Positions 6,532-57,178 of a stretch of DNA of 64,000 bases are shown here, one piece after another. The stretch is from Oscillochloris sp. ZM17-4 (GTDB lineage: Bacteria; Chloroflexota; Chloroflexia; Chloroflexales; Chloroflexaceae): the NCBI RefSeq assembly GCF_019599295.1, contig NZ_JAIEWN010000031.1, forward strand, positions 1-64,000, in the 5' to 3' direction. Both the position numbers and the translations under genes were made by a program. Below the pieces are notes generated by a model that did not search any database, was not told the origin of the DNA, and worked only from the letters and a program-made list of their open reading frames with translations. Numbering within the stretch: the stretch's first letter is position 1; each line of letters starts with the position of its first letter.

Positions 6532-6550
6532 AATCGGTGCCCCCAACGGA

Positions 6551-6590
6551 ATTGCAGATTGCAGATTGCTTCAAATCTGCAATCTGCAAT
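6551..6590. repeat. inverted 7-bp-word array (GATTGCA family)
   Basis: ATTGCAGATTGCAGATT (6551-6567) is mirrored exactly by 6574-6590 with a 6-nt loop. It touches the Rieske stop codon and lies between the Rieske and cytochrome c genes. Confidence 0.85.
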
Positions 6591-7093: not shown

Positions 7094-7120
7094 AGCCTAC
7101 CTCACCTCTTTGCCAACACA

Positions 7121-7183
7121 GATTGCAGATTGCAGATTGCCGGAGTCCGGCAATCTGCAATCTACAATCTACAATCTGCAATC
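7121..7183. repeat. inverted 7-bp-word array (GATTGCA/GATTGTA family)
   Basis: Three tandem GATTGCA words (7121-7141) are followed by a short spacer and their inverted counterpart including TACAATC variants (7151-7183). It abuts the cytochrome b stop codon. Confidence 0.85.
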
Positions 7184-8519
7184 AGAACGGCCACACCAGC
7201 GCCATGTTCGGCCCGCGGAACCAGATCCCCACCGCCGTGAGCACGACGAGCGCGACCATCACAAAGCTGAACAGGCCGACGAGCGCCTCGCTGTGGCGGG
7301 CGCGCAGCCCGCGCCGCAGCCCCGCGTAGATCCCCGCGAGCCCGCCCAGGGTGAGCAGCAGCGGCAGCAGCCCGTTCGATATCAGGGTCGAGGTGGGCGC
7401 CAGCAGGGCCGGCAGATCTAGCCAGAGCTCGTCGACCAGCACCAGCAGCGGCGTCAGCACGATGGCGAGAGCGGCACCAAGCAACCCGGCCATACGACCG
7501 GTGGGCGAGCGGAAGTAGACCCCCTCATCGGACGAGTCGCGGTCCCAGAGGGGCAGGACGGCCAGGCCGAGCAGGCCGATCGCAGCCAGGGCCAGGGCGG
7601 CGAGCGGGTGCATGTGCAGCAGCAGCTCCTGCACGCCGAGAAAGTACCAGGCTGCCTTGGCCGGGTTCGGCGGGTGCGCCGCGTTGGCCAGCGCCTCCAG
7701 CGGCGCAGGCACGGCCATGGCAAAGATCAGCAGCCCGGCCAGCGTGATCAGCGCCACGCCCAGCTCGGCGGTGACAAGGTGCGGGATAGTGGTCAGCCTG
7801 ACCACCTGCTCGCTCTGGGGCGGGATGGTCACGCCACCGTCCTTGCGGACGCGCCAGAAGTGGTAGGAGAGGCCAAAGATCAGCACCACTGGCAGCAGGG
7901 CGACGTGTAGGGCGTAGAAGTTGCGCAGGGCGGACTGGCCCACCTCCGGGCCGCCGAGCAGAAAGTCGCTGACCATTTGGCCCACCAGGGGCACGTAGGT
8001 CAGCAGGCCGGTGCCGACGGTGATTGCCCAGAAGGCCAGCTGGTCCCAGGGCAGCAGGTAGCCGGTGAAGTTAAAGGTCAGCACCAGCACGAGCATGCCC
8101 AGGCCGACCACCCAGTTCATACGGCGCTCGCCGCGGAACCCGCCGGCGGCGAAGACCCGGACCATGTGCAGCACGACGGTGATCATGAGCAGGTTGCCGG
8201 CCCAGTGGTGGATGCCGCGCAGCAGCGACCCGAAGGGGATGACTGTCTCCATGGCCTGCACGGCCGGGTAGGCCCGCTCGATGCTGGCGTCGTAGCGGAA
8301 CATCAGCAGCACGCCGGTGATGATCAGCAGCACCGACAGCAGCGCCGAGATGCCGCCAAGCCCCCAGGTGCGGCTGAAGCGCAGGGCGGGCGCCGGGACG
8401 CGGGTGGGGTGCAGGTGCAGGACGATGTTGTTGGCCACCGCCCGCATGCGGCTACGATCCTCGGGCGGCGGGGCGCTGCGGTAGCGCAGGCGGTCGATCA
8501 TCGCGTTGAGCCAGGACAT
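7182..8519 (-). CDS. petB: cytochrome b of a bc-type complex, fused N- and C-terminal domains
   Basis: 445 residues. The N-terminal cytochrome b domain has the haem ligand pairs in RGIHHWAGNLLMITVVLHM and FYALHVALLPVVLIFGLSYH, and helix B-C features such as FNFTGYLLPWDQLAFWA. The C-terminal domain follows in the same chain with about four more helices, so it is the fused (mitochondrial-like) form. The Qo-site motif usually written PEWY appears as AAWYF, so the conserved Glu is absent; some bacterial menaquinol-type cytochromes b also lack it. Its product should oxidise quinol together with the downstream Rieske and tri-haem cytochrome c. Confidence 0.93.
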   Translation of the reverse strand: MSWLNAMIDRLRYRSAPPPEDRSRMRAVANNIVLHLHPTRVPAPALRFSRTWGLGGISALLSVLLIITGVLLMFRYDASIERAYPAVQAMETVIPFGSLLRGIHHWAGNLLMITVVLHMVRVFAAGGFRGERRMNWVVGLGMLVLVLTFNFTGYLLPWDQLAFWAITVGTGLLTYVPLVGQMVSDFLLGGPEVGQSALRNFYALHVALLPVVLIFGLSYHFWRVRKDGGVTIPPQSEQVVRLTTIPHLVTAELGVALITLAGLLIFAMAVPAPLEALANAAHPPNPAKAAWYFLGVQELLLHMHPLAALALAAIGLLGLAVLPLWDRDSSDEGVYFRSPTGRMAGLLGAALAIVLTPLLVLVDELWLDLPALLAPTSTLISNGLLPLLLTLGGLAGIYAGLRRGLRARHSEALVGLFSFVMVALVVLTAVGIWFRGPNMALVWPF

Positions 8520-8531
8520 CGGGGGTTCCTT

Positions 8532-8608
8532 GATTGCAGATTGCAGATTGCAGATTGTAGATTGTAGGCAGCGAACAAATCTGCAATCTGCAATCTACAA
8601 TCTGCAAT
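8532..8608. repeat. inverted 7-bp-word array (GATTGCA/GATTGTA family)
   Basis: Five tandem words (GATTGCA with late GATTGTA variants, about 8532-8567) face the inverted series (about 8577-8608). It fills the space between the ferritin-like lipoprotein and cytochrome b. Confidence 0.85.
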
Positions 8609-8612
8609 GGGT

Positions 8613-9539
8613 TCAGGAGCAGCGCTGGAAGGCCGTCAGGTGCTTGTCGAGTGAGGCCGCCTGAAGCTGCTCGTACACTCGCACGATGTCGGCGCGGTCG
8701 GTGCTGACGAAGAGCCGCGTGTACAGGTCGGCGTTGACGATCTCGGCGTCCACGCCGGCCGCGCAGGCCTCGCTGACGCTGGTGAAGCTGGGTGCCTGCC
8801 CGACCCAGGGGTTCTCTGCGGGCAGCGGCAGTCCGTAGACGTTGAACAGCGTCTCCAGGCTGCTGATGTGGCCTGCCTCGGACTCGATGATGCTGGCGAA
8901 GGGCCGCACATCGCCGAAGTCGCTGATCACCTGGTCGTACACGGCCCAGGCGTGGTACTCGTCGTTGAGCGCGAGCAGCAGGCCGTTAATCTCGTCCGCG
9001 CTGAGCGGGCCGCTGTACTGGCTCATGTCTGTCTCACAGATCAGGCAGGGCGTCTCGGGCAGGTTGGATGGTGCGATCACCACTGGGGCCGTTGGCGGGC
9101 CGCCCTGGCCCTGGTTACCCTGGCCCTGGTTACCCTGGCCCTGGTTACCCTGGCCCTGGTTACCCTGGCCCTGGTTACCCTGGCCCTGGGTGCCCTGGCC
9201 CTGGGTGCCCTGGCCCTGCGCGCTCTGGTTTGTGTTGCCCTGGGTGCCCTGGCCCTGGGTGCCTTGGCCCTGCGCGCTCTGGTTTGTGTTGCCCTGGGTG
9301 CCCTGGCCCTGGGTGCCTTGGCCCTGCGCGCTCTGGTTTGTGTTGCCCTGGGTGCCCTGGCTCTGGGTGCCTTGGCCCTGGGTGCCCTGGCCCATGCCCG
9401 CCCCAGCGGGGGCGCTCTGCTGGCTGGCGGCGGCTACCGGGGCTACTGGTGCTGCGCTCGTCGTCGTGCTGGCGGGGGCGGCGCAGGCACTAAGGGCCAG
9501 GCCCAGCGCCAGAGAAGAAATAATTATTGCGCGTCGCAT
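8613..9539 (-). CDS. ferritin-like DUF2202 lipoprotein with a Gly/Gln repeat linker
   Basis: 308 residues. A lipoprotein signal ends in LALSAC (Cys about 19). Residues about 45-150 are low-complexity repeats of the types GQGTQ, GNTNQSA and GNQGQ. The C-terminal half is a DUF2202 ferritin-like four-helix domain with helix motifs LNDEYHAWAVYDQVI and SIIESEAGHISSLETLF, whose Glu and His residues could bind a di-iron centre. A Cys pair (CLIC) sits just before the domain. It is first in the run that continues with cytochrome b, Rieske and cytochrome c, so the exported metal-binding domain may be tethered near that complex. Function beyond the fold is unknown. Confidence 0.8.
   Translation of the reverse strand: MRRAIIISSLALGLALSACAAPASTTTSAAPVAPVAAASQQSAPAGAGMGQGTQGQGTQSQGTQGNTNQSAQGQGTQGQGTQGNTNQSAQGQGTQGQGTQGNTNQSAQGQGTQGQGTQGQGNQGQGNQGQGNQGQGNQGQGNQGQGGPPTAPVVIAPSNLPETPCLICETDMSQYSGPLSADEINGLLLALNDEYHAWAVYDQVISDFGDVRPFASIIESEAGHISSLETLFNVYGLPLPAENPWVGQAPSFTSVSEACAAGVDAEIVNADLYTRLFVSTDRADIVRVYEQLQAASLDKHLTAFQRCS
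9104..9395 (-). repeat. coding tandem repeats in the DUF2202 lipoprotein
   Basis: Two nested series: six 15-bp units (GNQGQ) at 9104-9190 and three longer units (QGNTNQSA plus two GQGTQ) at 9190-9395. Length variation by slippage is likely. Confidence 0.85.
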
Positions 9540-9759
9540 AGCGATCTCCTTAATGGGTCTTCGTGTGTCGTGAGTGATTGTCCACTCTCACAGTACCAGC
9601 CGATGGTGGAGATCCTATGGAGCCCCGGTGGAGGTGTGCGCCAGCTCGCCCGCGCCACGCTCGCGGCGAATAACCTGTAACCTGTCCACCGTGGCCAGCA
9701 TCACATAGCTAGCGCATAGCATCAGCATGCGCATGTTGTGTTGGCACAAGGAGGTGTCC

Positions 9760-14089: not shown

Positions 14090-14599
14090 TCAGACGTCGA
14101 TCCGCTTACGCTCGTCGCTCCAGTCGCACGCCGTCAGCAGGCCCCAGCCGGTCAGGACGTCCCTGGCTCGGGATAGCACGGCGGGCAGCGTGGCGGCCAC
14201 GGTCGGGCTCAGCTCCAGGCCGAGGGTCATGTCGGCGGGCTGGACACCGATCAGGTGTAGGTTTGGCGGCAGTCTGCCGCGCATGTTGGCCAGGCCGAGC
14301 ACCTCCTGGAAGGTGATCTGGTGCTGCGAGAGCTTTACCCCGGCGTAGAGCGGGATCTCGTCGCGGCGCAGCTCGATCAGCGTGCCCGGCGCGCGTCGGC
14401 CGTCGGCCGCGTCGAGGATGAGCAGGTGCTCGCACTCCTCGACCATGCTTAGCAGGCCCAGGCCGATCGTGCCGCCGTCGAGCGCCTCGACGCCCGCGGC
14501 GGGGCCGAGGTGCGCCTCCAGGGCGCGCACCGCATGGACGCCTAACCCCTCGTCGCGGTTCAGGATGTTGCCCAGCCCGAGGACGATGCTACGGCTCAT
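14090..14599 (-). CDS. hyaD: hydrogenase maturation protease (HyaD/HoxM type)
   Basis: 169 residues. The N-terminal motif VLGLGNILNRDEGLGVHAV contains the Ni-binding Asp (D16 in RDEG), with further ligand regions in ILDAADGRRAPG (Asp) and KLSQHQITF (His). It removes the C-terminal peptide of the large subunit after nickel insertion. It is the last gene of the minus-strand hydrogenase operon, directly after the large subunit. Length matches the family. Confidence 0.92.
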   Translation of the reverse strand: MSRSIVLGLGNILNRDEGLGVHAVRALEAHLGPAAGVEALDGGTIGLGLLSMVEECEHLLILDAADGRRAPGTLIELRRDEIPLYAGVKLSQHQITFQEVLGLANMRGRLPPNLHLIGVQPADMTLGLELSPTVAATLPAVLSRARDVLTGWGLLTACDWSDERKRIDV

Positions 14600-14616
14600 A
14601 TCATACGTTTCCTGGA

Positions 14617-14684
14617 GGGGCGCAGCAGCAGCTACCTATAACTTATGCCACTCGCACTCATCTGGTGCTGCTGCCTGCGCCCTT
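14617..14684. repeat. imperfect inverted repeat between hynL and the protease gene
   Basis: GGGCGCAGCAGCAGC (near 14617) faces GCTGCTGCCTGCGCCC (near 14667-14682) across a 35-nt loop. The GGGCGCAGCAGC word recurs at 16450 and 28528. Confidence 0.6.
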
Positions 14685-14691
14685 ACGTACA

Positions 14692-16431
14692 TCATACCCC
14701 ACACACGCTCAACCCCACCGCGACATCGCCCAGATCCTCGCCGCCGGCGTCGGTCAGGTGGATGGCGCAGGCCATGCACGGGTCGAAGGAGTGGATGGTG
14801 CGCAGGATCTCCAGCGGCCACTCGGGCTTCGCCATCGGCGTGCCGATCAGCGAGGACTCGTAGGCCCCCAGCTGGCCCTGCGGGTCGCGCGGGGTGGCGT
14901 TCCAGGTGGTCGGCACGACCATCTGGTAGTTGGCGGTCTTGCCGTTCTCGATCACGATCCAGTGGCCCAGCGCGCCGCGCGGCGCTTCCATGAAGCCGAA
15001 GCCCTTGGCGCTCGCCGGCCAGCTGATCGGCTCCCACTTCTCGCTGTTGAATGTCTTGGTGTCGCCGGCCTTGATCCGCGTCACCAGGTCGTCGTAGGTC
15101 GTGCGCAGGGCGTCGCTGAAGACCTTGGTCTCGATCGCGCGGGCGGCGGTGCGGCCCAGGGTCGAGATCAGCGCCGAGGCCGGCGCGTCCAGCGTCTTTA
15201 GGGTCAGGTCAACGAGCTCCTTGGTCTGGGCGTGGCCGGTGGCGTACATCGCCAGGACACGGGCCAGCGGGCCGACCTCCATAGGCGTGTTGTTCCAGCG
15301 CGGGGCCTTCAGCCACGAGTACTTGCCCTCGACGTTGAGCTGCTCGTAGGGCGCCTCGGGGCCGGTGAAGTTGAAGGTCGTCTCGCCCTGCCATGGGTGT
15401 AGGCCGATCTGGTCGCCGCCCTGGTACTGGTACCAGGAGTGGGCGATAAACTCCTGCATCATGCTGGCGTCGTTGGGGTCGGGCTCGATCAGGTTGTTCA
15501 GGTCGCCGCCGAGGATGGCCACCCGCGGCACCATGAGCGTTTTCAGGTCGCGGATATCTCCCGATGGGAACTCGCCCCAGGTTAGGAAGTTGCCCAGCCC
15601 GCCGCCGATCCCGGCGTAGTCCTTGTAGAAGGGCGCGATCGCCAGCACGTCAGGCAGGTAGACCTGGTCGACAAAGGCCTGGATCTCTTTGATCGAGTCG
15701 TCGATGATCGAGAGCCGCTCGGCGTTCAGCGCGGTGTCGCTGTCCAGGTCGATCGGCATGGGCACGCCGCCGACGACGAAGTTCGGGTGCGGGTTCTTGC
15801 CGCCGAAGATGATATGGATCTTCGTGGCGCGGGCCTGCCAGTCGAGCGCCTCAAGGTAGTGGGCCACCGCCATCAGGTTCACCTCGGGCGGCAGCTTGTA
15901 GGCCGGGTGGCCCCAGTAGGCGTTGGCGAAGATCGAGAGCTGGCCGCTGTCCACCACGGCCTGGATCTTCTTCTGCACATCGGCGAAGTAGCCCGGCGAG
16001 CTGTTCGGCCAGGGCGAGATCTTCTGCTGGAGCGCCGAGGTGGCCGCCGGGTCGGCCTTCAGGCAGCTCACCACGTCCACCCAGTCGAGGGCGTGCAGGT
16101 GGTAGAAGTGCATCACGTGGTCGTGGACGTACTGCTGGGCGATCATCAGGTTGCGGATGAGGTTGGCCGCCGGCGGGATGACGATGCCGAGGGCGTCCTC
16201 GACCGAGCGGATCGATGCGAAGGCGTGGACGGTGGTGCAGACGCCGCAGACGCGCTGGGCGAAGACCCAGGCCTCGCGCGGGTCGCGCCCGTTGATGATC
16301 GTCTCGAGCCCGCGCACCATTGTGCCCGACGAGTAGGCGTCGCGCACCATTCCGTCCTCGCCCAGCTCCACCTCGATCCGCAGGTGGCCCTCGATGCGGG
16401 TGATCGGGTCGATAACAATTCGTTTGGCCAT
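14692..16431 (-). CDS. hynL: [NiFe] hydrogenase large subunit (Isp-type, group 1e-like)
   Basis: 579 residues. N-terminal L1/L2 motif RVCGVCTTVHAF (about residue 60) and C-terminal DPCMACAIH (550-558) supply the four Ni-Fe cysteines. The 21 residues after His558 are the peptide removed by the maturation protease encoded next. The early sequence ITRIEGHLRIEVEL is the usual family start. With HynS, Isp1 and Isp2 in the order S-isp1-isp2-L the enzyme matches membrane-linked Isp-type uptake hydrogenases of phototrophic sulfur bacteria, which exchange electrons with the quinone pool. The active site lies on the outer face because HynS has a Tat signal. Confidence 0.95.
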   Translation of the reverse strand: MAKRIVIDPITRIEGHLRIEVELGEDGMVRDAYSSGTMVRGLETIINGRDPREAWVFAQRVCGVCTTVHAFASIRSVEDALGIVIPPAANLIRNLMIAQQYVHDHVMHFYHLHALDWVDVVSCLKADPAATSALQQKISPWPNSSPGYFADVQKKIQAVVDSGQLSIFANAYWGHPAYKLPPEVNLMAVAHYLEALDWQARATKIHIIFGGKNPHPNFVVGGVPMPIDLDSDTALNAERLSIIDDSIKEIQAFVDQVYLPDVLAIAPFYKDYAGIGGGLGNFLTWGEFPSGDIRDLKTLMVPRVAILGGDLNNLIEPDPNDASMMQEFIAHSWYQYQGGDQIGLHPWQGETTFNFTGPEAPYEQLNVEGKYSWLKAPRWNNTPMEVGPLARVLAMYATGHAQTKELVDLTLKTLDAPASALISTLGRTAARAIETKVFSDALRTTYDDLVTRIKAGDTKTFNSEKWEPISWPASAKGFGFMEAPRGALGHWIVIENGKTANYQMVVPTTWNATPRDPQGQLGAYESSLIGTPMAKPEWPLEILRTIHSFDPCMACAIHLTDAGGEDLGDVAVGLSVCGV

Positions 16432-16449
16432 AGTAGTCTCTTCTCGTTG

Positions 16450-16478
16450 GGGCGCAGCAGCGCCGCGCTGCTGCGCCC
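16450..16478. repeat. hairpin between isp2 and hynL
   Basis: GGGCGCAGCAGCG (16450-16462) pairs perfectly with 16466-16478; 3-nt loop. There is no T-tract, so it may moderate expression inside the operon or stabilise transcript ends rather than stop transcription. Confidence 0.75.
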
Positions 16479-16494
16479 TTACGCCATGATCTCG

Positions 16495-17775
16495 CTACTC
16501 CTCAACCAGCGCCTCGGCGACCAGATGCGACAGGCCGACGGCCTTGACCGGCGAGCCGAAGTGCTGCAGGCTCTCGGTGAACTGGAGCCGACAGTTGGCG
16601 CAGGTCATCGCCACCCTGGTCGCGCCGACCTCCTCCATCTGGCGGATCTTCAGCTCGAAGACCTTGTAGCGCAGCGGGTCGGCCTCTTTGATCGCGATCA
16701 CGCCGCCGCCGCCGCCGCAGCAGACGCTCTCTTCGCGGCAGCGGTCTAGCTCCTTGAAGGATGTGGGGGCCAGCAGCTTGAGGATGTTGCGCGGCTCCTC
16801 GATATGGCCGCCGCGGCGCTGGATCTTGCAGGCGTCGTGGAAGGTGATCGTGCCGCCTTCGTCGAAGGCGCCCGGTCGCAGCGTGATCCGCTTCGCCTTG
16901 ATCAGCTCGTCGATCACCGCCACAATATGTGTCACCTCGCAGGGCATCTCGACCATGTTGGGGGCCGTCCAGCGCAGCAGGTCGTAGGCGTGGCCGCACT
17001 CGGTGACGACCAGGCGCTTTACGCCCAGCTCCTTCGCCGAGTCGAGCAGACGAGCCATGAACAGCTTCACCCGGTCGGGGTTGCCCTCGAAGACGCCGAA
17101 GTTCACCACCTCGCGGCCGGGCGTGCTGATCGTCCACTTCTCGCCGGCGGCGTTGAGGATCTTGGCGATGGCGACGATGTTCTCGGGGAACTTCATCAGC
17201 TCGATGCTGGTGAAGGCCACCATCGTATCGGATCCCTTCACGTCGATCGGGATCTCGACCTCCCACTCGTCGGCGATCCACTCGATCCGGTCAACCCATG
17301 CGTCATCGGTCACACCCAGCGGGCTGCCGATCTCCTCCTGCTTGCGCACGGCCTCGACCAGGTCGGCGGGGATGATCTCGGCCTCGGCCATCGCCTCGCG
17401 CACATCGTGGATGAGCGGCCCGAGCTGGATGCCCATTGGGCAGACCATCGCGCACTTATTGCAGAGCGTGCATGCCTCGTAGACGATCGGGCTCCAGTGG
17501 CTGATATCCTCATCCGTCACTGGCTTATCGAGGCCGAGCATCAGCTTGGCCCGGCCAGTTAGGGTGAAGCGCTGCTCGTAGGCCCGGCGCAGCAGCTCAA
17601 CCTTCCAGACCGGGGCGAACTCGGGGTTGCCGGTGGCCTCGTAGAAGTGGCATGCCTCGGCGCAGATGCCGCAGCGAGTGCAGGCATCGAGCTGGCTGGC
17701 AACCCACGAGCCGGTGGTGTGGATAAAGCTATCTATGGCGGCGCGCGCCGGCGCCGGGGCAATTGTTGTAGTCAT
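16495..17775 (-). CDS. isp2: Isp2, HdrD-like iron-sulfur protein of the hydrogenase
   Basis: 426 residues. Two [4Fe-4S] ferredoxin motifs lie near the N-terminus (CTRCGICAEAC about 32-42 and CTLCNKCAMVCPMG about 101-114). Of the two CCG domains that bind the unusual clusters of heterodisulfide reductase, the first has kept only VTECGHAY, while the second is complete: HDACK, ESVCCGGGGG and TCANC. So one non-cubane-type cluster seems possible. Isp2 transfers electrons between HynS and Isp1. Its HdrD-like site could also act on a disulfide; the lipoyl protein encoded upstream is a natural candidate, which is my inference. Confidence 0.92.
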   Translation of the reverse strand: MTTTIAPAPARAAIDSFIHTTGSWVASQLDACTRCGICAEACHFYEATGNPEFAPVWKVELLRRAYEQRFTLTGRAKLMLGLDKPVTDEDISHWSPIVYEACTLCNKCAMVCPMGIQLGPLIHDVREAMAEAEIIPADLVEAVRKQEEIGSPLGVTDDAWVDRIEWIADEWEVEIPIDVKGSDTMVAFTSIELMKFPENIVAIAKILNAAGEKWTISTPGREVVNFGVFEGNPDRVKLFMARLLDSAKELGVKRLVVTECGHAYDLLRWTAPNMVEMPCEVTHIVAVIDELIKAKRITLRPGAFDEGGTITFHDACKIQRRGGHIEEPRNILKLLAPTSFKELDRCREESVCCGGGGGVIAIKEADPLRYKVFELKIRQMEEVGATRVAMTCANCRLQFTESLQHFGSPVKAVGLSHLVAEALVEE

Positions 17776-17798
17776 AGGGCACCCATCTTCTTCGATAA

Positions 17799-17900
17799 GG
17801 GGACAGGGAACAGCGGATAGGGCACAGGCCGGAATAAGGACACAAACCCTGTTTGAACGAGAGCTAACACCTATCCGCTGTCCCCTGTCCCCTGTCCCCT
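17799..17900. repeat. inverted 7-bp-word array (GGGACAG family)
   Basis: GGGGACAGGGAACAGCGGATAGG (17799-17821) is mirrored by CCTATCCGCTGTCCCCTGTCCCCTGTCCCCT (17870-17900). It fills the isp1-isp2 gap, close to both genes. Confidence 0.8.
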
Positions 17901-17904
17901 CGCA

Positions 17905-18606
17905 TCACGGCATCACCGCTCGCTTGCCGGCCTGCGCACCGTGGTAGGTGCGCGAGAAGAAGTAGAACATGAAGTGGCTGATCCGGCTGAACGGGATCCA
18001 GATCAGCATCAGGTTGATCGACATCATGTGCATGATGTAGAGGTTCTCGTAGGGCAGCGCGACGATGCCCAGCAGCCGGTGGTGGGTCAGCCCGTAGCCG
18101 GTGACCATCGGCAGGAAGACGATCAGCAGATTCAGCCACTCGGAGGGGCCGGAGATCAGGCGTAGCACCGGGTTGGCCAGCCGGTTCACGAAGAGCGCGA
18201 TCATGGCCACGATCGCCGCCGCCGAGAGAAAGTCGACGATCGGCAGCGCCAGGGTAGGCCAGCCGAAGCCGAGCAGGCTCTTCCAGACCAGCATATGCGC
18301 CGTGCCCAGGAAGATCACTACGAACAGCCCGAAGTGGAACATCCCGCCGGCCAGGTAGGTCGTCTGGTTGCCCCTGAAGGTCTTCTTCACCCAGGGGATG
18401 AAGGGGAAGATCAGCAGCCCCTTGGCGTAGGTGACCGCCACGCCGCGCAGCTTGCTGCCCTTGTTCGGGACGCGGTCGCGCTTCCAGCCGAGCAGCAGCA
18501 CGCTCACCAGGCGGTAGGCCATGCCGACGATAAAGATCATCAGCGCGGTGTAGAACAGCGGGCCGCGCGCGAAGACGAGCGTCGCATCGGTGGAACCCAT
18601 CGTCAA
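17905..18606 (-). CDS. isp1: Isp1, membrane cytochrome b subunit of the hydrogenase
   Basis: 233 residues with five hydrophobic helices, in the nitrate reductase gamma (NarI)-like family. Candidate haem b ligands are His residues in GGMFHFGLFVV, GLTHHRLLG and YIMHMMSINL. After MTMGSTDATLVFARGPLFY the first helix begins. It anchors the hydrogenase and passes electrons to or from quinone. It lies between HynS and Isp2 as in known Isp operons. ATG 18606 follows GAGGAG; an inner ATG at 18600 is also possible. Confidence 0.9.
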   Translation of the reverse strand: MTMGSTDATLVFARGPLFYTALMIFIVGMAYRLVSVLLLGWKRDRVPNKGSKLRGVAVTYAKGLLIFPFIPWVKKTFRGNQTTYLAGGMFHFGLFVVIFLGTAHMLVWKSLLGFGWPTLALPIVDFLSAAAIVAMIALFVNRLANPVLRLISGPSEWLNLLIVFLPMVTGYGLTHHRLLGIVALPYENLYIMHMMSINLMLIWIPFSRISHFMFYFFSRTYHGAQAGKRAVMP

Positions 18607-18675
18607 CTCCTCTTCTCATCCGACAACCATACGGCGCAGGCCGCATAACACCGGATCAAGAACGAATCAGTGTCC

Positions 18676-19797
18676 TCACCCACTCAGTGACTCAGTGGTT
18701 TCCTCATCGGTGTCGGCGTGCCGCTTCTGGAGGCGGTTCACACCAGCGTTTGCCACGCCGATGACCGCGCCCGCGGCCAGGGCGACCCCGGCGGCGGTGA
18801 GGGTGGGCCGGCCGATCGGAGCCGACTGGCCCTGGTAGAAGCCGCCGTTATCCCAGAAGTTTGGCTCGGAGCAGCCGAGGCATGGGTGGCCGGACTGGAT
18901 GGGGAAGGAGAGTCCGCCGCCCCACTTGATGCCCGCGCAGGCATTGTAGGTGGTCGGTCCCTTGCAGCCGAGCTTGTAGAGGCACCAGCCCTTGCGCGCG
19001 CCCTCATCGTCGAAGCTGTTGGCGAACTTGCCCGCCTCGTAGAAGGGCCGGCGCAGGCAGCGGTCGTGCACCGTCGTTCCGTAGAAGGTGATCGGTCGGT
19101 TGAGGTCGTCCAGCTCGGGCAGCTTGCCAAAGACGAGGAAGTTCACTAGGGTGCCGGTGAAGGCCTCGGGGATGGCCGGGCAGCCGGGGATGTGGGCAAC
19201 CGGCTTGTCAGTGATCAGCTGGTAGGCTGGGACGGCGCCGGTGGGGTTGGGCTGGGCCATGGGGATGCCGCCGAAGGCCGCGCAGTTGCCGGTGGCGATC
19301 ACCGCCGCCGCGCCAGCCGCCGCCTCCTGGAGCAGATCCACTGCGGTGCGCCCGCCGATCGTGCAGTAGTTGCCGTTGGCCCCGGTGGGCACGCTGCCCT
19401 CCACCACAAGCAGATACTGGCCGGCGTAGGTCTCCATCATCATGCGCTTGTTCTCATCGGCCTGCACGCCTGAGGCGGCCGAGAGCGTCTCGTGGTAGTC
19501 GATCGTGATCTTGTTTAGGACGAGGTCGGTCAGGGTGGGCGAGAGCGAGCGGGTCAGCGCCTCGGTGCAGCCAGTGCAGTCCTGGAAGTTGAGCCACATC
19601 ACGGGGACGCGCGGCTTACTGGCCAGCGCCTCGGCGACCAGGCGGGTGGGGCTTGTGGGGCGGGTGAGGCCGGCGGCCAGCAGCGGCGACGCCTCGCTTA
19701 TGCCCAACGTCACCGCCAGCGCGCCGCAGATCTTGAGGAACTGACGCCGCGAGACCCCTTCGCGCTGGAGGTATTGATAGATCGTCTCATCGGCCAT
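18676..19797 (-). CDS. hynS: [NiFe] hydrogenase small subunit
   Basis: 373 residues. The Tat signal SRRQFLKICGALAVTLG begins at residue 16, so the folded heterodimer is exported. The proximal cluster starts with CTGC (about 74-77), followed by later Cys sets in GNCAAFGG, IPGCPAIP, CLYKLGCKGP, YNACAGIKWGG and SGHPCLGCSEPNFWD. A C-terminal helix LTAAGVALAAGAVIGVAN and basic tail provide a membrane anchor. It relays electrons from the Ni-Fe site to Isp2/Isp1. It is the fourth gene of the operon and follows the lipoyl protein. Confidence 0.95.
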   Translation of the reverse strand: MADETIYQYLQREGVSRRQFLKICGALAVTLGISEASPLLAAGLTRPTSPTRLVAEALASKPRVPVMWLNFQDCTGCTEALTRSLSPTLTDLVLNKITIDYHETLSAASGVQADENKRMMMETYAGQYLLVVEGSVPTGANGNYCTIGGRTAVDLLQEAAAGAAAVIATGNCAAFGGIPMAQPNPTGAVPAYQLITDKPVAHIPGCPAIPEAFTGTLVNFLVFGKLPELDDLNRPITFYGTTVHDRCLRRPFYEAGKFANSFDDEGARKGWCLYKLGCKGPTTYNACAGIKWGGGLSFPIQSGHPCLGCSEPNFWDNGGFYQGQSAPIGRPTLTAAGVALAAGAVIGVANAGVNRLQKRHADTDEETTESLSG

Positions 19798-19893
19798 GGT
19801 GGCCTCCTGAAAAGCACAGGGATCCTGGCCGCCTCACGCTGGGGCAGCCCTTCCTTCCCTCGCTAACTGTCGGCAAGCGTCGCTTGCCGACGG

Positions 19894-20337
19894 CTAGCAA
19901 TTAATATTCTCGGCGTCGAGCTTGGCCTGGTAGGCGGCCACGCCGGCGGCACCAGTCACCAGATTATCCTTCTCGGCATCCCAGTTGCTCGGCTGGAGCT
20001 CGACGATCCAGCCCTCGCCGTAGGGGTCAGAGACTGGCAGGTTCGGGTCGGCGGCAAGCTTATCGTTTGCCCGCAGGAGCACGCCCGTCGCGGGGGCGGG
20101 CACCGGGCCGACGTACTTGCTGCTCTCGACCGTGGCGGCGCTTTTGCCGGCTTTAATCTCCTGGCCGATATTCTTGGCCTTGACGGTGACGGCGGTGAGC
20201 TTCCCGCCGGCCAGCTTGCCGGCCACCTGCGTCATCCCGACGCGGATCACGCCGCCGTCCATCGGCTTGGCCCAGACGTGCTTGTCAAGGTTGTAGTAGA
20301 GATCCTCAGGGATGTTGCAGCCGCGGATCGTAGGCAT
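19894..20337 (-). CDS. lipoyl (GcvH-like) carrier protein, LbpA-type candidate
   Basis: 147 residues with a GcvH-like fold: IRVGMTQVAGKL and AGKSAATVESSKYVGPVPAP, in which Lys74 (ESSK) is the expected lipoylated residue, then GEGWIVELQPSNW. The sequence ends in Cys147. No glycine-cleavage gene is nearby; instead it lies between dsrE and hynS. GcvH-like proteins that serve sulfur oxidation (lipoate-binding proteins of the sHdr pathway) have this kind of genetic setting, next to DsrE and Hdr-like genes. I infer that its lipoyl arm shuttles sulfur or a disulfide to the HdrD-like Isp2. A stand-alone GcvH remains possible. Confidence 0.85.
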   Translation of the reverse strand: MPTIRGCNIPEDLYYNLDKHVWAKPMDGGVIRVGMTQVAGKLAGGKLTAVTVKAKNIGQEIKAGKSAATVESSKYVGPVPAPATGVLLRANDKLAADPNLPVSDPYGEGWIVELQPSNWDAEKDNLVTGAAGVAAYQAKLDAENINC

Positions 20338-20355
20338 ATCACAGACTCCTCATCA

Positions 20356-20423
20356 TCACTGAGGCACTGAGCCACTGAGATTTTCCATATTTCAGTGCTT
20401 CAGCGCCTCAGTGCCTCAGTGCT
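20356..20423. repeat. inverted word array (CACTGAGG family)
   Basis: CACTGAGGCACTGAGCCACTGAGA (about 20357-20380) is mirrored by TCAGTGCTTCAGCGCCTCAGTGCCTCAGTG (20392-20421). The period is 7-8. The array lies between dsrE and the lipoyl-protein gene. Confidence 0.8.
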
Positions 20424-20798
20424 TTAGAACGAGATCAGCTTATCCGACTCGGACACCACCTCGAACCCGGCGGCGGCGCTGATCAGATTGCAGCCGGGGA
20501 TGAGGTCATCGGCGCTCATGCGGTGCATCTCCATCGAGGGGGCGCAGGCGCCAAGCTTCACACCGGCCTGAGTCGCTAGCTGGATAAATGAGGCGACCGA
20601 CTGACCATCGGGGCCCATGGGGAAGGTGTCCTCGGCCACGCCCTTCTTGAGCAGCAGCGTGCCCATGCCTGTGCAGTACACCGTCACGTCATAGTCCTGT
20701 CCGGCGGCCAGAGTGGCCATATAGAAGGGGGTCGCGCAGCGCTCGGGGGCGTTCGGGCCAGATGTCATCACAATTACGAAGCTGTTGCCGTCGCTCAT
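20424..20798 (-). CDS. DsrE-family sulfur-transfer-like protein
   Basis: 124 residues. DsrE/F fold signature: VIVMTSGPNAPERCATPF, then VTVYCTGMGTLLLKKG, then LGACAPSMEMHRM. Cys21, Cys42, Cys85 and Cys103 are available; Cys85 lies at the position of the usual sulfur-carrying Cys of the family. Proteins of this family bind persulfide sulfur or act in small-molecule thiol chemistry. It follows the PocR regulator by 12 bp and precedes the lipoyl protein in what seems a single operon with the hydrogenase. Substrate unknown. Confidence 0.87.
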   Translation of the reverse strand: MSDGNSFVIVMTSGPNAPERCATPFYMATLAAGQDYDVTVYCTGMGTLLLKKGVAEDTFPMGPDGQSVASFIQLATQAGVKLGACAPSMEMHRMSADDLIPGCNLISAAAGFEVVSESDKLISF

Positions 20799-20810
20799 GG
20801 GGTCACTCCT

Positions 20811-21557
20811 CTAATATTTTTCCAGTATGGTCATCTCAGCGATGCGCCGCAGCCTGCCGAGCAGGGTGGCGCGCTCGTGGGCGATAGTCTCGAAGGTGCC
20901 GGCCACTCGCGCCAGCCAGCTGGTGATCTGCGCGCGCGCGCGCGGGCTCAGGCTTGGAATGCTGGCGGCGGCCTCGGCGAGGGCTCCCGGGTCGAGGCCA
21001 TACGAATCGCTCAGCTGGCGCAGCTGAGCGGCTGTATGCGTAGATTCGGGCTGGCCGGCGTGGAACTGGCCGGCGATCAGCAGGGCTACCGTCACGCCCT
21101 CAACCCGGATAGGGGCGTGGGCATAGCTTAGCCCAGCGTGACATGTGGAGATCGTGCCGGGCGCTGCCTGCGCTAGAGGGCAGCAAGACTCCTGACACGC
21201 CAGCTTGCCCTGGGGGCTTGTCTGGATGAGGGCGCAGAATGCGCAGCTGCCGCTGGGGGTCGTGAGCGGTGTGCCATCCGGGGCGATCGTGATCGCGCCG
21301 AGCCCCGCCACCTCGGCGAAGACATCCTGGATGGGCTGGATACAGTGCAGGGGCAGCACATCGGCGGGGCGCAGAGGCAGCTGTGGCTCGGGCGAGCTGG
21401 ATCCGCTGAGGATGGTACTGACGCTCGCGCGGGAGAAGCGCCACTGCTGGCCCACCTTCACCCCGGTTATCCGGCCGTCCTTGAGCATCCGGTAGACCGT
21501 CGTGCGGTCGACCTTCAGGATGTCCTGGACCTCGCGTGCAGTCAATAGGTCATTCAT
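20811..21557 (-). CDS. HTH-PocR domain transcriptional regulator
   Basis: 248 residues from ATG 21557 (ATG 21563 equally possible; no clear ribosome-binding site). Residues 1-50 are an excisionase/MerR-like DNA-binding domain (LTAREVQDILKVDRTTVYRM and GVKVGQQWRFSRASV). Residues about 70-215 are a PocR ligand domain with the Cys pattern CAFCALI...LACQESCCPLAQ and STCHAGLSYAHAPI, ending in long helices. PocR domains sense a small molecule or a redox/metal state, possibly through these Cys residues. It heads the operon continuing into dsrE, the lipoyl protein and the hydrogenase, so it is likely their regulator. Confidence 0.87.
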   Translation of the reverse strand: MNDLLTAREVQDILKVDRTTVYRMLKDGRITGVKVGQQWRFSRASVSTILSGSSSPEPQLPLRPADVLPLHCIQPIQDVFAEVAGLGAITIAPDGTPLTTPSGSCAFCALIQTSPQGKLACQESCCPLAQAAPGTISTCHAGLSYAHAPIRVEGVTVALLIAGQFHAGQPESTHTAAQLRQLSDSYGLDPGALAEAAASIPSLSPRARAQITSWLARVAGTFETIAHERATLLGRLRRIAEMTILEKY

Positions 21558-21689
21558 CAGCATTGATAGATGCAATAAGAAATCATAGGTTGCTATAGCG
21601 ATATCGTCGCATGGGCAGCCTGATAAAACAAGCGTAGAGCGCGCAACTAGAGAGTGAACGAGCCGCTACCAATGTATACCACGAGGCAC

Positions 21690-21728
21690 AAAAAAGCTTC
21701 CCCCGCCGCATTGCGGTCTGCATGCGGC
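21690..21728 (-). terminator. possible minus-strand terminator
   Basis: On the minus strand, GCCGCAT/ATGCGGC (7 bp, 10-nt loop) is followed by GGGGGAAGC and six T. It would stop transcripts leaving the partition region towards the PocR gene. The stem is short. Confidence 0.35.
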
Positions 21729-21755
21729 TCAGAGTTGCACCTCTCTATAACATTT

Positions 21756-21810
21756 CGCGTACGCACGTACGCACGTACGCACGTACGCACGTACGCGCGT
21801 ACGTGCGTAC
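21756..21810. repeat. GTACGCAC tandem array upstream of parA (iteron/centromere-like)
   Basis: About six head-to-tail copies of the 8-bp unit GTACGCAC (21759-21799), ending with inverted and diverged copies GCGCGTACGTGCGTAC (21795-21810). Each unit carries the palindrome CGTACG or ACGTAC. The array lies 38 bp before the parA -10 box, the usual place for a partition-complex binding site that doubles as operator. Confidence 0.85.
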
Positions 21811-21824
21811 TTAGGTTTTTGCCA

Positions 21825-21853
21825 TGGCAAGTTTTTGAAAATCTGAATATAAT
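21825..21853 (+). promoter_or_regulatory. parA promoter
   Basis: TATAAT (21848-21853) is a perfect -10 box; TGGCAA (21825-21830), 17 bp upstream, serves as -35 and lies within the palindrome TTGCCATGGCAA. The upstream GTACGCAC array suggests autoregulation by the partition proteins. Confidence 0.6.
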
Positions 21854-21886
21854 GATCCCCCGCAATACCGATAGGGGCACAACTCT

Positions 21887-22480
21887 ATGATCATCACCTG
21901 CGCATCGTTTAAGGGTGGCGTTGGGAAGACCACCAGCGCCATTCATGTTGCGACGTACCTCCAGTCGCTCGCCCCCACGATGCTGGTCGATGGCGACCCC
22001 AACCGGAGCGCGTCAAGCTGGGCGCGCCATGGGCTGCTCCCCTTCGCCGTGATCGATGAGCGGCAGGCCACCCGCCACGCACGGAGCTATGAGCACATCG
22101 TGATCGACACGAAGGCCAGGCCAGATGAGGAAGATCTCAAAGCGTTGGCAGATGGCTGTGACCTGCTAGTCATCCCGACCACACCCGACGCGCTGGCCCT
22201 GGATGCGCTGATGCTTACGGTGAAGGCGCTGCGCGTGCTCGGGGCCGACCGCTATCGCGTGCTGATCACGATGGTCCCGCCCAAGCCGAGCCGCGATGGT
22301 GAAGATGCACGGGCGCTGCTGGGAGAGGCGGGGCTACCGATCTTTGCGCAAAGCATCCGGCGCCTGGTCGCCTTCCAAAAGGCGGCACTCCAGGGCGTGC
22401 CCGTCTCCCAGGTGAGTGACCCTCGCGCGGCGGAGGCGTGGGGCGATTATGAGCGTGTAGGCCAGGAGGTTATGGGATGA
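21887..22480 (+). CDS. ParA/ParF-like partition ATPase
   Basis: 197 residues. Deviant Walker A FKGGVGKTTSAI (K9 and K14), Walker A' region LVDGDPNRSASSW, Walker B-like HIVIDTKARP. The short length without an N-terminal DNA-binding domain matches the ParF (type Ib) class of plasmid ATPases, whose partner is a small ribbon-helix-helix protein, exactly what follows. The stop TGA overlaps the partner ATG (ATGA at 22477-22480), so translation is coupled. Flanking repeat arrays support a complete par system. A chromosomal cargo-positioning role of McdA/MinD type is an alternative. Confidence 0.88.
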   Translation: MIITCASFKGGVGKTTSAIHVATYLQSLAPTMLVDGDPNRSASSWARHGLLPFAVIDERQATRHARSYEHIVIDTKARPDEEDLKALADGCDLLVIPTTPDALALDALMLTVKALRVLGADRYRVLITMVPPKPSRDGEDARALLGEAGLPIFAQSIRRLVAFQKAALQGVPVSQVSDPRAAEAWGDYERVGQEVMG

Positions 22481-22803
22481 CAAGCAGACGTCAAAATAAA
22501 TTCGCTGACCTGATCAGCGCTGTGCGCGATGGCGAAGAGACGCCGGTCGTTGATGCGCCGGCCGTGCCGCCCCAGATAGTCACGGAACCTACTCCCCAGG
22601 AAAAAGCAGGCATTGATCCGCCCCACCGCGGGCGCCCGCTGACGGGCAAACGGAGCAACCCTGACTTTGAGCAGGTGACGGCGTACATCCGTCGCGACAC
22701 TAATATCCAGATAAAGATTGCGCTGCTTCAGGAAGGCAACACCCGCGACTTCAGCGACCTGGTGGAGGATCTGCTTCAGGCGTGGCTCCTCAATCGACAA
22801 TAG
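22477..22803 (+). CDS. ribbon-helix-helix partition partner (ParG-like)
   Basis: 108 residues. The N-terminal 45 residues are polar and probably flexible; residues about 50-108 read GRPLTGKRSNPDFEQVTAYI and continue with a beta strand, then the two helices IQIKIALLQEG and DFSDLVEDLLQAWLL, the standard RHH arrangement of plasmid partition centromere-binding proteins. The mobile N-terminus would stimulate the ParA ATPase, and the RHH dimer would bind the GTACGC repeats on either side. The gene overlaps parA by 4 bp and is followed 24 bp later by the large repeat array. Confidence 0.82.
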   Translation: MTSRRQNKFADLISAVRDGEETPVVDAPAVPPQIVTEPTPQEKAGIDPPHRGRPLTGKRSNPDFEQVTAYIRRDTNIQIKIALLQEGNTRDFSDLVEDLLQAWLLNRQ

Positions 22804-22826
22804 CGTGGGTACGACTTAGGTTTTCA

Positions 22827-23008
22827 CGTACGCAGCATGGCGCGTACGCAGCATGGCGCGTACGCAGCATGGCACGTATGCAGCATGGCGCGTACGCAGC
22901 ATGGCGCGTACGCAGCATGGCGCGTACGCAGCATGGCGCGTACGCAGCATGGCGCGTACGCAGCATGGCGCGTACGCAGCATGGCACCATGGCGCCATGC
23001 TGCGTACG
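22827..23008. repeat. 16-bp tandem repeat array with an inverted terminal copy (centromere-like)
   Basis: Ten head-to-tail copies of CGTACGCAGCATGGCG (22827-22986; copies 3, 4 and 10 have single changes) and, after 6 bp, one exact inverted copy (22993-23008). The junction forms a hairpin. The unit shares CGTACGCA with the array upstream of parA. ACTTAGGTTTT occurs just before this array (22814-22824), and a close match (ACTTAGGTTTT at 21809-21819) just after the upstream one. Confidence 0.93.
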
Positions 23009-23144
23009 CGCCATGCCGCCCCATGTTCTGAAAGAGAAGATCACAGAGGTCGCGAGCAGAAGGTGCCGCAAGGCTTGCAGAAGAAGATGATATGGAGCAA
23101 GGATAGCCGCGTGTGGGGACGTATAATACTTCGGGTAATAGCCA

Positions 23145-26100
23145 TTATTCGACCTCTATCACCCCTCCAGACGATAAACGTCTCCCAGCCCCCAGATCAT
23201 CCCCCACCCCCTCCAGGTCCATCTCCGTCTCCACCGCTGCGGCCGCCGGGGCCAGGCTGGCCTCCACCGCCTCGACGGCGTCCACCACCAGCTGCGGGCT
23301 GTCGCGCCGGTTGTCCACCTTGGCCGTGATCTTCAGCACCGCGTCGTTCTGGAGCAGGTCGCCGCACTTGGCCAGGCTCTTGGGGAAGACCACGATCTCG
23401 ATCGTGCTGGTCGTGTCCTCCAGCACGCCCACCAGCATGGCGTCGCCCTTCTTGGTGGTGATCCGGCGCACCCCGCCCAGCAGGCCGATGAAGGTCAGCG
23501 ACTTGCCGATATGCTCCTCGGTGATGTCGCCCAGCAGCGTCACCCCGCGCATATCGACGCCCTCCAGCGACTTGGACACCGGGTCCTCGGAGACGTTCAG
23601 GCCGAGCAGCTCCTTCTCCCAGAGCAGCTCCTCCTTGTTCTCGGCCGGGGTGGGCTGGATGATCGGCATGGGGATGCGCGAGACGTTGACGCTAGAGGGA
23701 CCGCCGACGCTCTCGCCGAACATGTCGAACAGGCTGCCCTGGCCGACCTCCTTGGCCTTCTGGGCCTCGATCCCGGCGGCGAGCGCCTGGTCGAGGATGG
23801 CCAGCTTCTGGCGGCGGGTGCCGGGCAGCGCGTCGAGGGCGCCGGCCTTGATCAGGCTCTCGACGACACGCTTGTTCAGGGCGTTGCGGTCGACCCGCGC
23901 GCACAGATCCTCCAGCGAGCTGAAGTCGCCGCCCTCCTCGCGGGCCGCGATGATCGCCTCGACCGGCCCCTCGCCCACGTTCTTGATCGCCGCCATGCCG
24001 AAGCGGATGGCCCGGTTGAACTTCACGCCGGGGGGGAGGGGCGCCCCCTTGTGGTCGCCCCCGATCGGCTCAATATCGAAGCCCTTCGTCGAGCGGTTCA
24101 CGCAGGGGCTGAGCACCGCCACGCCCAGGCGCCGGCTCTCCAGCGCGCTCTTGGCCACGTCCTCCGTCACCCCGCCCGAGCCGGTCAGCACGGCGGCCAT
24201 ATACTCGACCGGGTAATTCACCTTGAGCCAGGCCGTCTGGTAGCTGAGCAGCCCGTAGAGCGTGGCGTGGGGCCGGTTGAAGGAGTAGCCGGCGAAGGGC
24301 AGGATCAGCTCCCAGAGCTCATCGGCGACCGCCTGGCTGATGCCCTTCTTGCGGCAGCCCTCCTTGAAGATCGCCCCGTTCTCGGCCATCAGCTGCTTGT
24401 TCTTCTTGCTGATCGCCTTGATCACGATGTAGGCCTGGCCCAGGGTGTAGTCGGCCACCGTCTGGAGCAGCTGCATGATCTGCTCCTGGTAGACGATCAC
24501 GCCGTAGGTGTCCTCCAGGATGGGCTTGAGGATGGGGTGCAGGTAGTGGATGCCGCCGGGGTTGTTCTTGCCCTGGATGTAGCTCGGGATCTGCTCAAGC
24601 GGGCCGGGCCGGTAGAGCGCCACCATGGCGTAGAGGTCGTCCACGCGGGTCGGCTTGAGCTGCACGAGGTAGCGGGTCATGCCCGCCGACTCCAGCTGGA
24701 AGACGTTCTTCGTCTCGCCGCGGCCGAGCGCCTGGAAGGTCTTCACATCATCGGTGGGGATGTCGGTCAGCTCCATCTTCTTGCCGGTGGTGCGCTCGAT
24801 GTAGCGCATGGCCTCGGCCACCGCCGAGAGGTTGGTCAGGCCGAGGATGTCCATCTTCAGCAGACCCATCTTGGCCAGGGTCGGCCCCTCGAACGAGGCC
24901 ATGACGCCGTGCTCGTCCTTGGTGGTGTGCTGGAGCGGCACCATCTCCTCAAGCGGCGTGCGCGACACCACCACGCCGCAGGCGTGGGTGCCGACGTTGC
25001 GCATGCGCCCCTCGACCTTCTGGGCCCAGTCGATCACCTCGGCCAGGTGCGGCTGCGTCTCGTGGATCTGCTTGAGCTCGGGCACCTTCTCCAGGGCCTG
25101 GGCGATCGTGGTGCCCACCGGCAGCGAGGGGATCAGCTTGGCGACCCGGTCCACCTCGGAGAGCTCGACGCCGAGCACGCGGCCCATATCGCGCAGGGCG
25201 GCCTTGGCCCCCAGGGTGCCGTAGGTGATGATCTGGGCGACGTTCTCGCGGCCGTACTTCCCGGCGATATAGTCGAGGATCTCGCCGCGCCGCGAGTCGG
25301 CGAAGTCGGTGTCGATATCGGGCATCTCCAGGCGCTCGCGCGAGAGGAAGCGCTCGAAGAGCAGCTTGTTCGCCACCGGGTCCACGTCGGTGATGCCCAG
25401 GCAGTAGAGCACCAGCGAGGCCCCGGCCGAGCCTCTGGGCAGGCAGGGGATGCCGCGCGAGCGCGCGTACTTCACATAGTCCCAGACGATCAGCATATAG
25501 TCGGGGAATCCGGTGGCGTTGATTACGTCAAGCTCGTCATCAAGCCGGGCGATGTAGTTGGCCGGCGGGTTGCCGGCGAACTTCTTCATCAGCCCCTCCT
25601 CGCAGACCAGGCGCAGGTAGGATGAGGCGTCGTGGCCGGCGGGGATCTCGAACTGCGGCAGCTGGACGCGGCCGAACTCCAGCTTGAGGTTGCACATGTC
25701 GGCGATGCGCCGGGTGTTCTCCATCGGCGCGGTGCCATAGCGCTGGAACTTCTGCCACATCTCCTCGCCAGACATGATGTGGTAGCTGTCGTCCATCATG
25801 TAGCCCTTGCCGCAGAACTCCTTGTAGGTCAGGTTCATGCCCATCGACATCACCATGTGCTGCGTCTGCATATCCTCGCGGCGCACAAAGTGGGTGTCGT
25901 TGGTGACGACCATGGGGATGCCGAGATCCTGGCCGATCCGCATCAGCTCGTCGTTGATGCCCTCAAGTTCGGGGGTGTTCTCGTGGAGCTGTAGCTCAAG
26001 GAAGTAGTTGTCGGGGCCGAGCAGGTCGCGGTAGTAGGCCGCGTGCTCGACGGCCTGCTTGCGCTGCTGGGCCGTCAGGCTCTGGATAACCTCGCCGGCG

Positions 26101-26528
26101 ATGCATGCCGAGGTGACGACCAGGCCCTCGTGGTGCTGCTCCAGCAGCGCGCGGTCGATGCGCGGGCGGGCGAAGACGCCCTTGCCCATGCCGTCGAGGT
26201 GCGCGCGGCTGGTCAGCTTCACCAGGTTGCGGTAGCCGACCTCGTTCTTGGCCAGCAGCAGCAGGTGGTAGTAGTTCTTGCCGCCGCGGGTCATCGCGTC
26301 AGTGCGCGAGCCGGGGGCCATGTAGGCCTCCATGCCGATGATCGGCTTGATCCCGGCCTTCTTCGCGGCGTCGTAGAACTCCATCGCCCCGTACATCACG
26401 CCGTGGTCGGTCAGGGCGATGCTGTCCATCCCCAGCTCGCCGGCCCGCGCCGCGATCGCCTTCGTCGCCGCGTACCCGTCCAGCAGGCTGTACTCCGAGT
26501 GGACGTGTAGATGGGTGAAGTCTTTCAT
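23145..26528 (-). CDS. dnaE: DNA polymerase III alpha subunit
   Basis: 1127 residues, typical DnaE1 length. The N-terminal PHP domain begins FTHLHVHSEYSLLDG and has LTDHGVMYGA. The polymerase active-site region contains GVELSEVDRVAKLIPSLP and PDIDTDFADSRRGEIL (catalytic Asp residues). Later come the helix-hairpin-helix region, then an OB-fold near the C-terminus (ITTKKGDAMLVGVLEDTT). It is the replicative polymerase. It lies alone on the minus strand, with DnaA boxes upstream and the partition repeats at its 3' side. Confidence 0.97.
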   Translation of the reverse strand: MKDFTHLHVHSEYSLLDGYAATKAIAARAGELGMDSIALTDHGVMYGAMEFYDAAKKAGIKPIIGMEAYMAPGSRTDAMTRGGKNYYHLLLLAKNEVGYRNLVKLTSRAHLDGMGKGVFARPRIDRALLEQHHEGLVVTSACIAGEVIQSLTAQQRKQAVEHAAYYRDLLGPDNYFLELQLHENTPELEGINDELMRIGQDLGIPMVVTNDTHFVRREDMQTQHMVMSMGMNLTYKEFCGKGYMMDDSYHIMSGEEMWQKFQRYGTAPMENTRRIADMCNLKLEFGRVQLPQFEIPAGHDASSYLRLVCEEGLMKKFAGNPPANYIARLDDELDVINATGFPDYMLIVWDYVKYARSRGIPCLPRGSAGASLVLYCLGITDVDPVANKLLFERFLSRERLEMPDIDTDFADSRRGEILDYIAGKYGRENVAQIITYGTLGAKAALRDMGRVLGVELSEVDRVAKLIPSLPVGTTIAQALEKVPELKQIHETQPHLAEVIDWAQKVEGRMRNVGTHACGVVVSRTPLEEMVPLQHTTKDEHGVMASFEGPTLAKMGLLKMDILGLTNLSAVAEAMRYIERTTGKKMELTDIPTDDVKTFQALGRGETKNVFQLESAGMTRYLVQLKPTRVDDLYAMVALYRPGPLEQIPSYIQGKNNPGGIHYLHPILKPILEDTYGVIVYQEQIMQLLQTVADYTLGQAYIVIKAISKKNKQLMAENGAIFKEGCRKKGISQAVADELWELILPFAGYSFNRPHATLYGLLSYQTAWLKVNYPVEYMAAVLTGSGGVTEDVAKSALESRRLGVAVLSPCVNRSTKGFDIEPIGGDHKGAPLPPGVKFNRAIRFGMAAIKNVGEGPVEAIIAAREEGGDFSSLEDLCARVDRNALNKRVVESLIKAGALDALPGTRRQKLAILDQALAAGIEAQKAKEVGQGSLFDMFGESVGGPSSVNVSRIPMPIIQPTPAENKEELLWEKELLGLNVSEDPVSKSLEGVDMRGVTLLGDITEEHIGKSLTFIGLLGGVRRITTKKGDAMLVGVLEDTTSTIEIVVFPKSLAKCGDLLQNDAVLKITAKVDNRRDSPQLVVDAVEAVEASLAPAAAAVETEMDLEGVGDDLGAGRRLSSGGVIEVE

Positions 26529-57123: not shown

Positions 57124-57178
57124 GAGGAGCGCATCGGCATTTGCCAGAACCGCGCTGCGATTGTACCATCCCTACACA

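Follow-up and report, generated by a model that had tools for sequence, protein, structure and literature searches.

A probable two-gene partition cassette next to dnaE

The stretch of DNA analyzed here (the window) comprises positions 1 to 64,000 of contig NZ_JAIEWN010000031.1 from Oscillochloris sp. ZM17-4, a member of the Chloroflexota, and beside dnaE it contains a two-gene cassette with a repeat array on each side. The first gene, parA (21887–22480, forward strand), encodes a small ParA ATPase of 197 aa with the deviant Walker A motif KGGVGKT, of the pSYSX/pSYSM (PDB 3cwq) kind. The second gene (22477–22803, forward strand) overlaps the first in the sequence ATGA and encodes a ribbon-helix-helix (RHH)-like protein of 108 aa, the likely centromere-binding protein. 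The initial annotation had described this overlapping pair as bracketed by 8-bp repeats upstream and 16-bp repeats downstream, and our coordinates and copy counts agree with it. The system is real and of a known kind, in an unusual place.

ParA matches the Pfam families CbiA and AAA_31 and aligns with the solved ParA-family protein 3cwq at 277 bits. It also matches plasmid ParF (E 3e-8, about 37 bits) and the NCBIfam model NF041546 (ParA_partition), the latter at 88.8 bits, under the curated cut-off of 180 bits. An alignment of 14 ParAs shows that KGGVGKT, the second Walker motif, and the conserved DT are kept throughout. The pair had been called parF-like and parG-like; the Pfam ParG model does not match the 108-aa protein, which we do not file as ParG. 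Comparison supports the type Ib-like classification, with a small ParA bearing a deviant Walker A motif and contiguous iterons beside the genes, both kept in relatives.

The 108-aa protein consists of an N-terminal KF motif, a disordered linker, a GKRS motif, and a beta-alpha-alpha-like C-terminus, and the Pfam search found no ParB_N in it. Its family joins a sister set of partner proteins at 98.5% probability in a profile comparison, and two members of that set pass the Pfam RHH_1 cut-off; one member of that set also has a weak ParG match, and such matches, below the cut-off, are recorded for two distant relatives. A profile search of the PDB with the RHH-like family returned only chance matches to unrelated proteins. 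The predicted structure, computed from an alignment with rows only from the window and genome-contig loci, has a low-confidence middle and places C-terminal helices at residues 73–86 and 92–107 after a QVTAYI stretch, so that the predicted C-terminus fits beta-alpha-alpha with moderate confidence. The protein is likely, though not proven, to be of the RHH type.

Two arrays and a proposed common 8-bp code

The upstream array (21748–21851, forward strand), a putative operator and/or centromere, consists of 13 units of 8 bp, unbroken and in a single register, which read in order TAACATTT CGCGTACG CACGTACG (four times) CGCGTACG TGCGTACT TAGGTTTT TGCCATGG CAAGTTTT TGAAAATC TGAATATA. Its obvious part, at 21758–21803, holds 5.8 copies of CGTACGCA with 97% matches. 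On the other side of the genes, the downstream array (22817–23016, forward strand), a putative centromere, contains about 25 contiguous 8-bp units. It starts with TAGGTTTT at 22817, after which strong (CRCGTACG) and weak (CAGCATGG) units alternate to give ten 16-bp repeats, seen as CGTACGCAGCATGGCG at 22827–22985 (9.9 copies, 97% matches), and an inverted copy at 22993–23008 closes the array. The element ACTTAGGTTTT, which had been reported beside each array, is located at 21809–21819 and 22814–22824. These arrays are not due to chance. When one mismatch is allowed, the 6.69-Mb draft genome has the 16-mer at 11 places, all of them here, and allowing two mismatches adds 8 scattered single sites, compared with 4 for the reversed control pattern.

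We propose that a single 8-bp code best describes the 8-bp array, the 16-bp array, and ACTTAGGTTTT. Each 16-bp repeat joins a strong 8-bp unit to a weak one, ACTTAGGTTTT contains the boundary unit TAGGTTTT, and the register extends beyond ACTTAGGTTTT into the promoter region of parA. A unit matrix built from relatives only matches the window at 21748, 21812, 21828, 21836, and 21844, all in the phase of the obvious array. In that phase 13 consecutive upstream units start with pyrimidine-purine, compared with no more than 7 in each of the other phases, by a rule that was chosen after the relatives had been viewed. The internal regularity of the downstream run follows in part from its near-perfect repeat and is not independent evidence. 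A promoter-like site (ATGGCA, 18 nt, TATAAT; 21824–21853, forward strand) is overlapped by the upstream array, with its TATAAT at 21848–21853; taken alone it is weak, as one such site was found where 0.8 is expected by chance. The initial annotation lacked the extension of the register into the promoter region, the composition of the 16-bp repeat from two 8-bp units, and the truncation of dnaE described below.

Homologous cassettes and their flanks

The same cassette was sought on plasmids and was found there in many phyla. A tblastn search with ParA against plasmids matched 2728 records, the best 40 of the 2728 at 58–70% identity, and full-length matches at 59–70% identity come from plasmids of Nostoc, Aulosira, Anabaena, Abditibacteriota, Thermus, Granulicella, Synechocystis (pSYSX, pSYSM), Deinococcus, and others. 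Directly downstream of the relatives' parA lie homologues of the small partner gene, usually with the ATGA overlap. This plasmid partition family is widespread, with members in Cyanobacteria, Acidobacteriota, Deinococcota, Armatimonadota/Abditibacteriota, Melainabacteria, and Chloroflexota. The DNA-level plasmid search gave partial ParA matches only and no array DNA in common. Among viral contigs the exact array (two 16-mers) was not found and there is one close relative (52%), while all matches in the phage collection are below 60% identity, with the top rows at 31–33%.

For the arrays we compared 250–300 bp on each side of the gene pair at 42 plasmid and genome loci, selected because their partner protein has a GKRS-like motif. 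Upstream, self-match peaks at lags of 8, 16, and 24 (mean z of 2.6, 2.6, and 2.3) and downstream the mean z at lag 8 is 2.0, compared with −0.4 inside parA (no peak) and 0.7 at a distance of 2 kb (weak). The heptamer TGCGTAC or its complement occurs at 28 of the 42 loci where 2.6 are expected, and GAGTACGC at 25 of them where 0.3 are expected. When set out in register, the units of the relatives are TGCGTACT CAAATATT CAAAAATT and similar. Loci with period 8 but without the TGCGTAC core include L025, L031, and L133; the core is present in Granulicella (Acidobacteriota) and at one Melainabacteria locus. Arrays therefore do stand beside the same genes elsewhere, period 8 and TGCGTAC flanking homologues in several phyla, and we regard flanking arrays of 8-bp period, present to either side and in many cases containing this core, as a trait of the family. 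Two records titled Tatlockia (Legionellaceae) and Woesearchaeota (L156 and L160) carry the cyanobacterial type of cassette; both are probably binning errors, since L156 is nearly identical to Aliterella.

Close copies are absent from the sampled relatives of the host. At E 0.001, ParA matches nothing in four of the five congeners and finds only a 34% match in the fifth; among 400 sampled genomes of the Chloroflexota, no other matches at E ≤ 1e-30. In a maximum-likelihood tree of 94 ParAs, which is midpoint-rooted and has many deep forks without resolution, the window ParA groups with three Acidobacteriota sequences (support 95/89), one of them plasmid-borne, apart from the cyanobacterial bulk. 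This patchy distribution points to horizontal transfer of the cassette.

A rearrangement junction at the cassette

The cassette lies between two breaks in synteny. To its right, dnaE (23145–26528, reverse strand) is truncated at its 3' end and encodes 1127 aa, compared with 1273 aa in the nearest congener, and homology stops at 23195. To its left, homology to the congener locus stops at 21557 within the gene for a PocR-type helix-turn-helix (HTH) regulator (20811–21575, reverse strand). In congener G005 the counterparts of window positions 5327–9644 and of dnaE onward adjoin on one contig, while that of 14120–21557 (hydrogenase genes and the PocR regulator) is on a separate contig, where it adjoins a gene with a protein start read as folD. 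No counterpart of 21558–23194, which includes the cassette, was found in the congener loci compared. The missing C-terminal domain of dnaE (after the OB-like region) stands alone on host contig C174 (6571–6867), flanked by oxidoreductase and transporter genes, and the matching stretches in G005 are about 43 bp apart. The initial annotation had raised the question of integration boundaries, and of these the breakpoints were found but attachment sites were not; no replication gene was seen adjoining the cassette.

This dnaE is the sole good copy in the genome, on the same 67.7-kb contig as the cassette, and fumC, NFACT, and hisB are also on that contig. Because these genes are present and there is no other good dnaE copy, the contig is most likely chromosomal. 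The host genome further contains a strong, Soj/Spo0J-like ParA+ParB_N pair on contig C121 and more pairs on C79, C35, and C122.

Several side observations concern this region. The only good copy of dnaE lacks its C-terminal domain; for the translocated tail there is a 61-aa frame with a GTG start, but nothing suggests a gene, and we rejected it as an orphan start. An interspersed repeat of ~300 bp (L081, about 6865–7162) borders the displaced dnaE end, and this repeat and others of 30–40 bp occur at many places in G005. The block at 14090–21575, which is [NiFe] hydrogenase-like and includes the PocR-HTH regulator, has another chromosomal place in G005. A gene of the mobile-element kind runs from 2018 to about 5300, and its product matches the CHC2 zinc finger weakly and looks TOPRIM-like; the gene is multicopy in the genus (host contigs C79 and C35; contigs C65, C54, and C34 of G005), and its frame continues into the neighboring cytochrome region, as though the gene had lost its end. 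That this gene and the cassette were parts of one split plasmid is not supported, and the two need separate events because the bc block, which the end of the gene abuts at about 5326, neighbors dnaE in the congener. Finally, 7-bp tandem repeats lie between genes at 7150–7183, 8532–8608, 49600–49706, and 57177–57208, some with inverted partners.

Origin and proposed mechanism

Based on these data we consider it very probable that a type-I partition cassette of plasmid origin, its centromere-binding protein being of the RHH type, has been left stranded on the chromosome of a member of the Chloroflexota. It is probably a recent arrival at the rearrangement that clipped dnaE, presumably by plasmid integration. 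Of the two possibilities that the initial annotation had left side by side, a plasmid cassette embedded in a chromosome is the one favored here, as congeners lack the cassette and its site is a rearrangement junction. Since no replication gene is adjacent and a separate ParAB pair is present in the genome, we take the cassette most likely to be a recent remnant, which may still be able to bind its own sites but is not needed.

We infer an RHH fold, DNA binding, autoregulation, and stimulation of the ATPase for this system, and we put forward the following hypothetical mechanism. Dimers of the 108-aa protein would align along the adjoining 8-bp units in each array. Upstream, they would cover the parA promoter and so autoregulate the cassette, and this array may also act as a centromere, while on the downstream array, with about 25 units, they would build a second, larger centromere complex. 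By analogy with omega and ParG, two partition complexes would form, one on the 13 units that reach over the promoter and one on the other array of about 25. Through its disordered N-terminal part, the RHH protein would contact nucleoid-bound ParA-ATP and cause ATP hydrolysis, whereupon the DNA bearing the arrays would be pulled along the nucleoid; in a plasmid, copies would in this way reach both daughter cells.

It should be noted that a number of points weigh against this interpretation. No Pfam or NCBIfam model matched the 108-aa protein, the mean pLDDT of its predicted model is 63 (moderate confidence), and a Foldseek search with the monomer model returned nothing below E 7, although this last result is weak evidence because a monomer cannot pair the beta-ribbon. 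The shuffles behind the period and motif counts keep base composition only, and the relatives are not independent, many being near-identical Nostocales. The host genome is a draft in 182 contigs. No remaining plasmid backbone was shown beside the cassette, so that plasmid integration is inferred.

The intact state of both genes and both arrays, the latter long and near-perfect, would also suit a domesticated cassette that works as a chromosomal positioning system, anchoring or positioning the dnaE region. This explanation, which the initial annotation had also offered, is not favored and we regard it as unlikely: the sampled relatives lack the cassette, so nothing indicates that it has been retained for long, and a separate ParA+ParB_N pair is encoded elsewhere in the genome. 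In addition, according to a 2026 paper, bacterial chromosomes have no partition systems other than those of the HTH-ParB type (PMC13245405), a statement to which active positioning of the dnaE region, if true, would be an exception. Alternatively, the cassette could be at home and working on a dnaE-bearing plasmid or chromid, the contig not being chromosome at all. The mobile-element-kind gene at 2018 to about 5300 is on the same contig, and some plasmids have a replication or TOPRIM gene ahead of parA; however, that gene is multicopy in the genus and lies 16 kb from the cassette, and the 67.7-kb contig carries the only good dnaE copy with fumC, NFACT, and hisB, which makes a plasmid or chromid very unlikely.

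The position of the cassette, exactly at the break of synteny with the congener in a draft of 182 contigs from a genus rich in repeats, is also what would be seen if a plasmid fragment had been misjoined to dnaE. We consider such an artefact quite unlikely, since the bc-dnaE neighborhood of the congener survives to either side of the insert on the same contig, and since the displaced dnaE end on C174 lies inside another, otherwise syntenic locus, as a real rearrangement and not a joining error predicts. Lastly, short tandem repeats, most of them with 7-bp units, abound in the window and in the genus, and the arrays could be unrelated minisatellites that flank the two genes by chance. This is extremely improbable, given that homologous genes in other phyla are flanked by the same period and core motif and that the 16-mer is limited to the cassette site within the genome. 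A stranded plasmid cassette remains the most likely explanation of this locus.

What this analysis adds is the unifying 8-bp code with its two-sided conservation in relatives of several phyla, together with the evidence for a newcomer cassette at a rearrangement that clips dnaE. In a PLSDB survey, 52% of plasmids had no partition system or none that was identifiable (PMC13245405), and the 8-bp code could aid the recognition of such systems on plasmids. The version of the code in the window is unusually clean, which makes it well suited to work that defines the binding site.

Comparison with known systems

We found no experimental characterization of this plasmid partition family in the literature searched, and no relevant paper around 3cwq. 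The closest counterparts are the plasmid cassettes of pSYSX/pSYSM (3cwq) and of Nostoc, Anabaena, and Aulosira, which share ParAs 61–70% identical to that of the window, the ATGA overlap, a homologous partner that is likely of the RHH type, and period-8 flanks with a TGCGTAC core. Their arrays are AT-rich and degenerate, whereas those of the window are GC-rich and near-perfect, and they reside on plasmids while the window cassette is on a chromosomal contig. Chromosomal ParABS of the Soj/Spo0J type has a ParA-type motor in common with the cassette, but its ParB is an HTH protein whereas the partner here is a protein of 108 aa.

Among the partition systems described in the literature, ParF-ParG-parH of TP228 (type Ib) has a similarly small ParA, a small partner with a disordered N-terminal part, and sites that serve as both centromere and operator (PMC7308502; PMC5016525), the role in both being that of ParG (PMC7308502). 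The window differs from it in having contiguous 8-bp units on both sides and a partner without a match to the ParG model. In pSM19035 (delta-omega-parS), an RHH protein acts on contiguous short iterons that overlap promoters, and at least four contiguous heptads are needed by omega for activation of the ATPase (PMC9499535; PMC4498918); its units are of 7 bp instead of 8 bp, its genes are transcribed separately, and the sequence is different. The two-sided arrangement recalls par2 of pB171 (parC1-parA-parB-parC2), in which parC1 and parC2 flank parA-parB in construct listings (PMC4270457; PMC4498918) and ParB is an RHH protein, the likeness being one of layout only.
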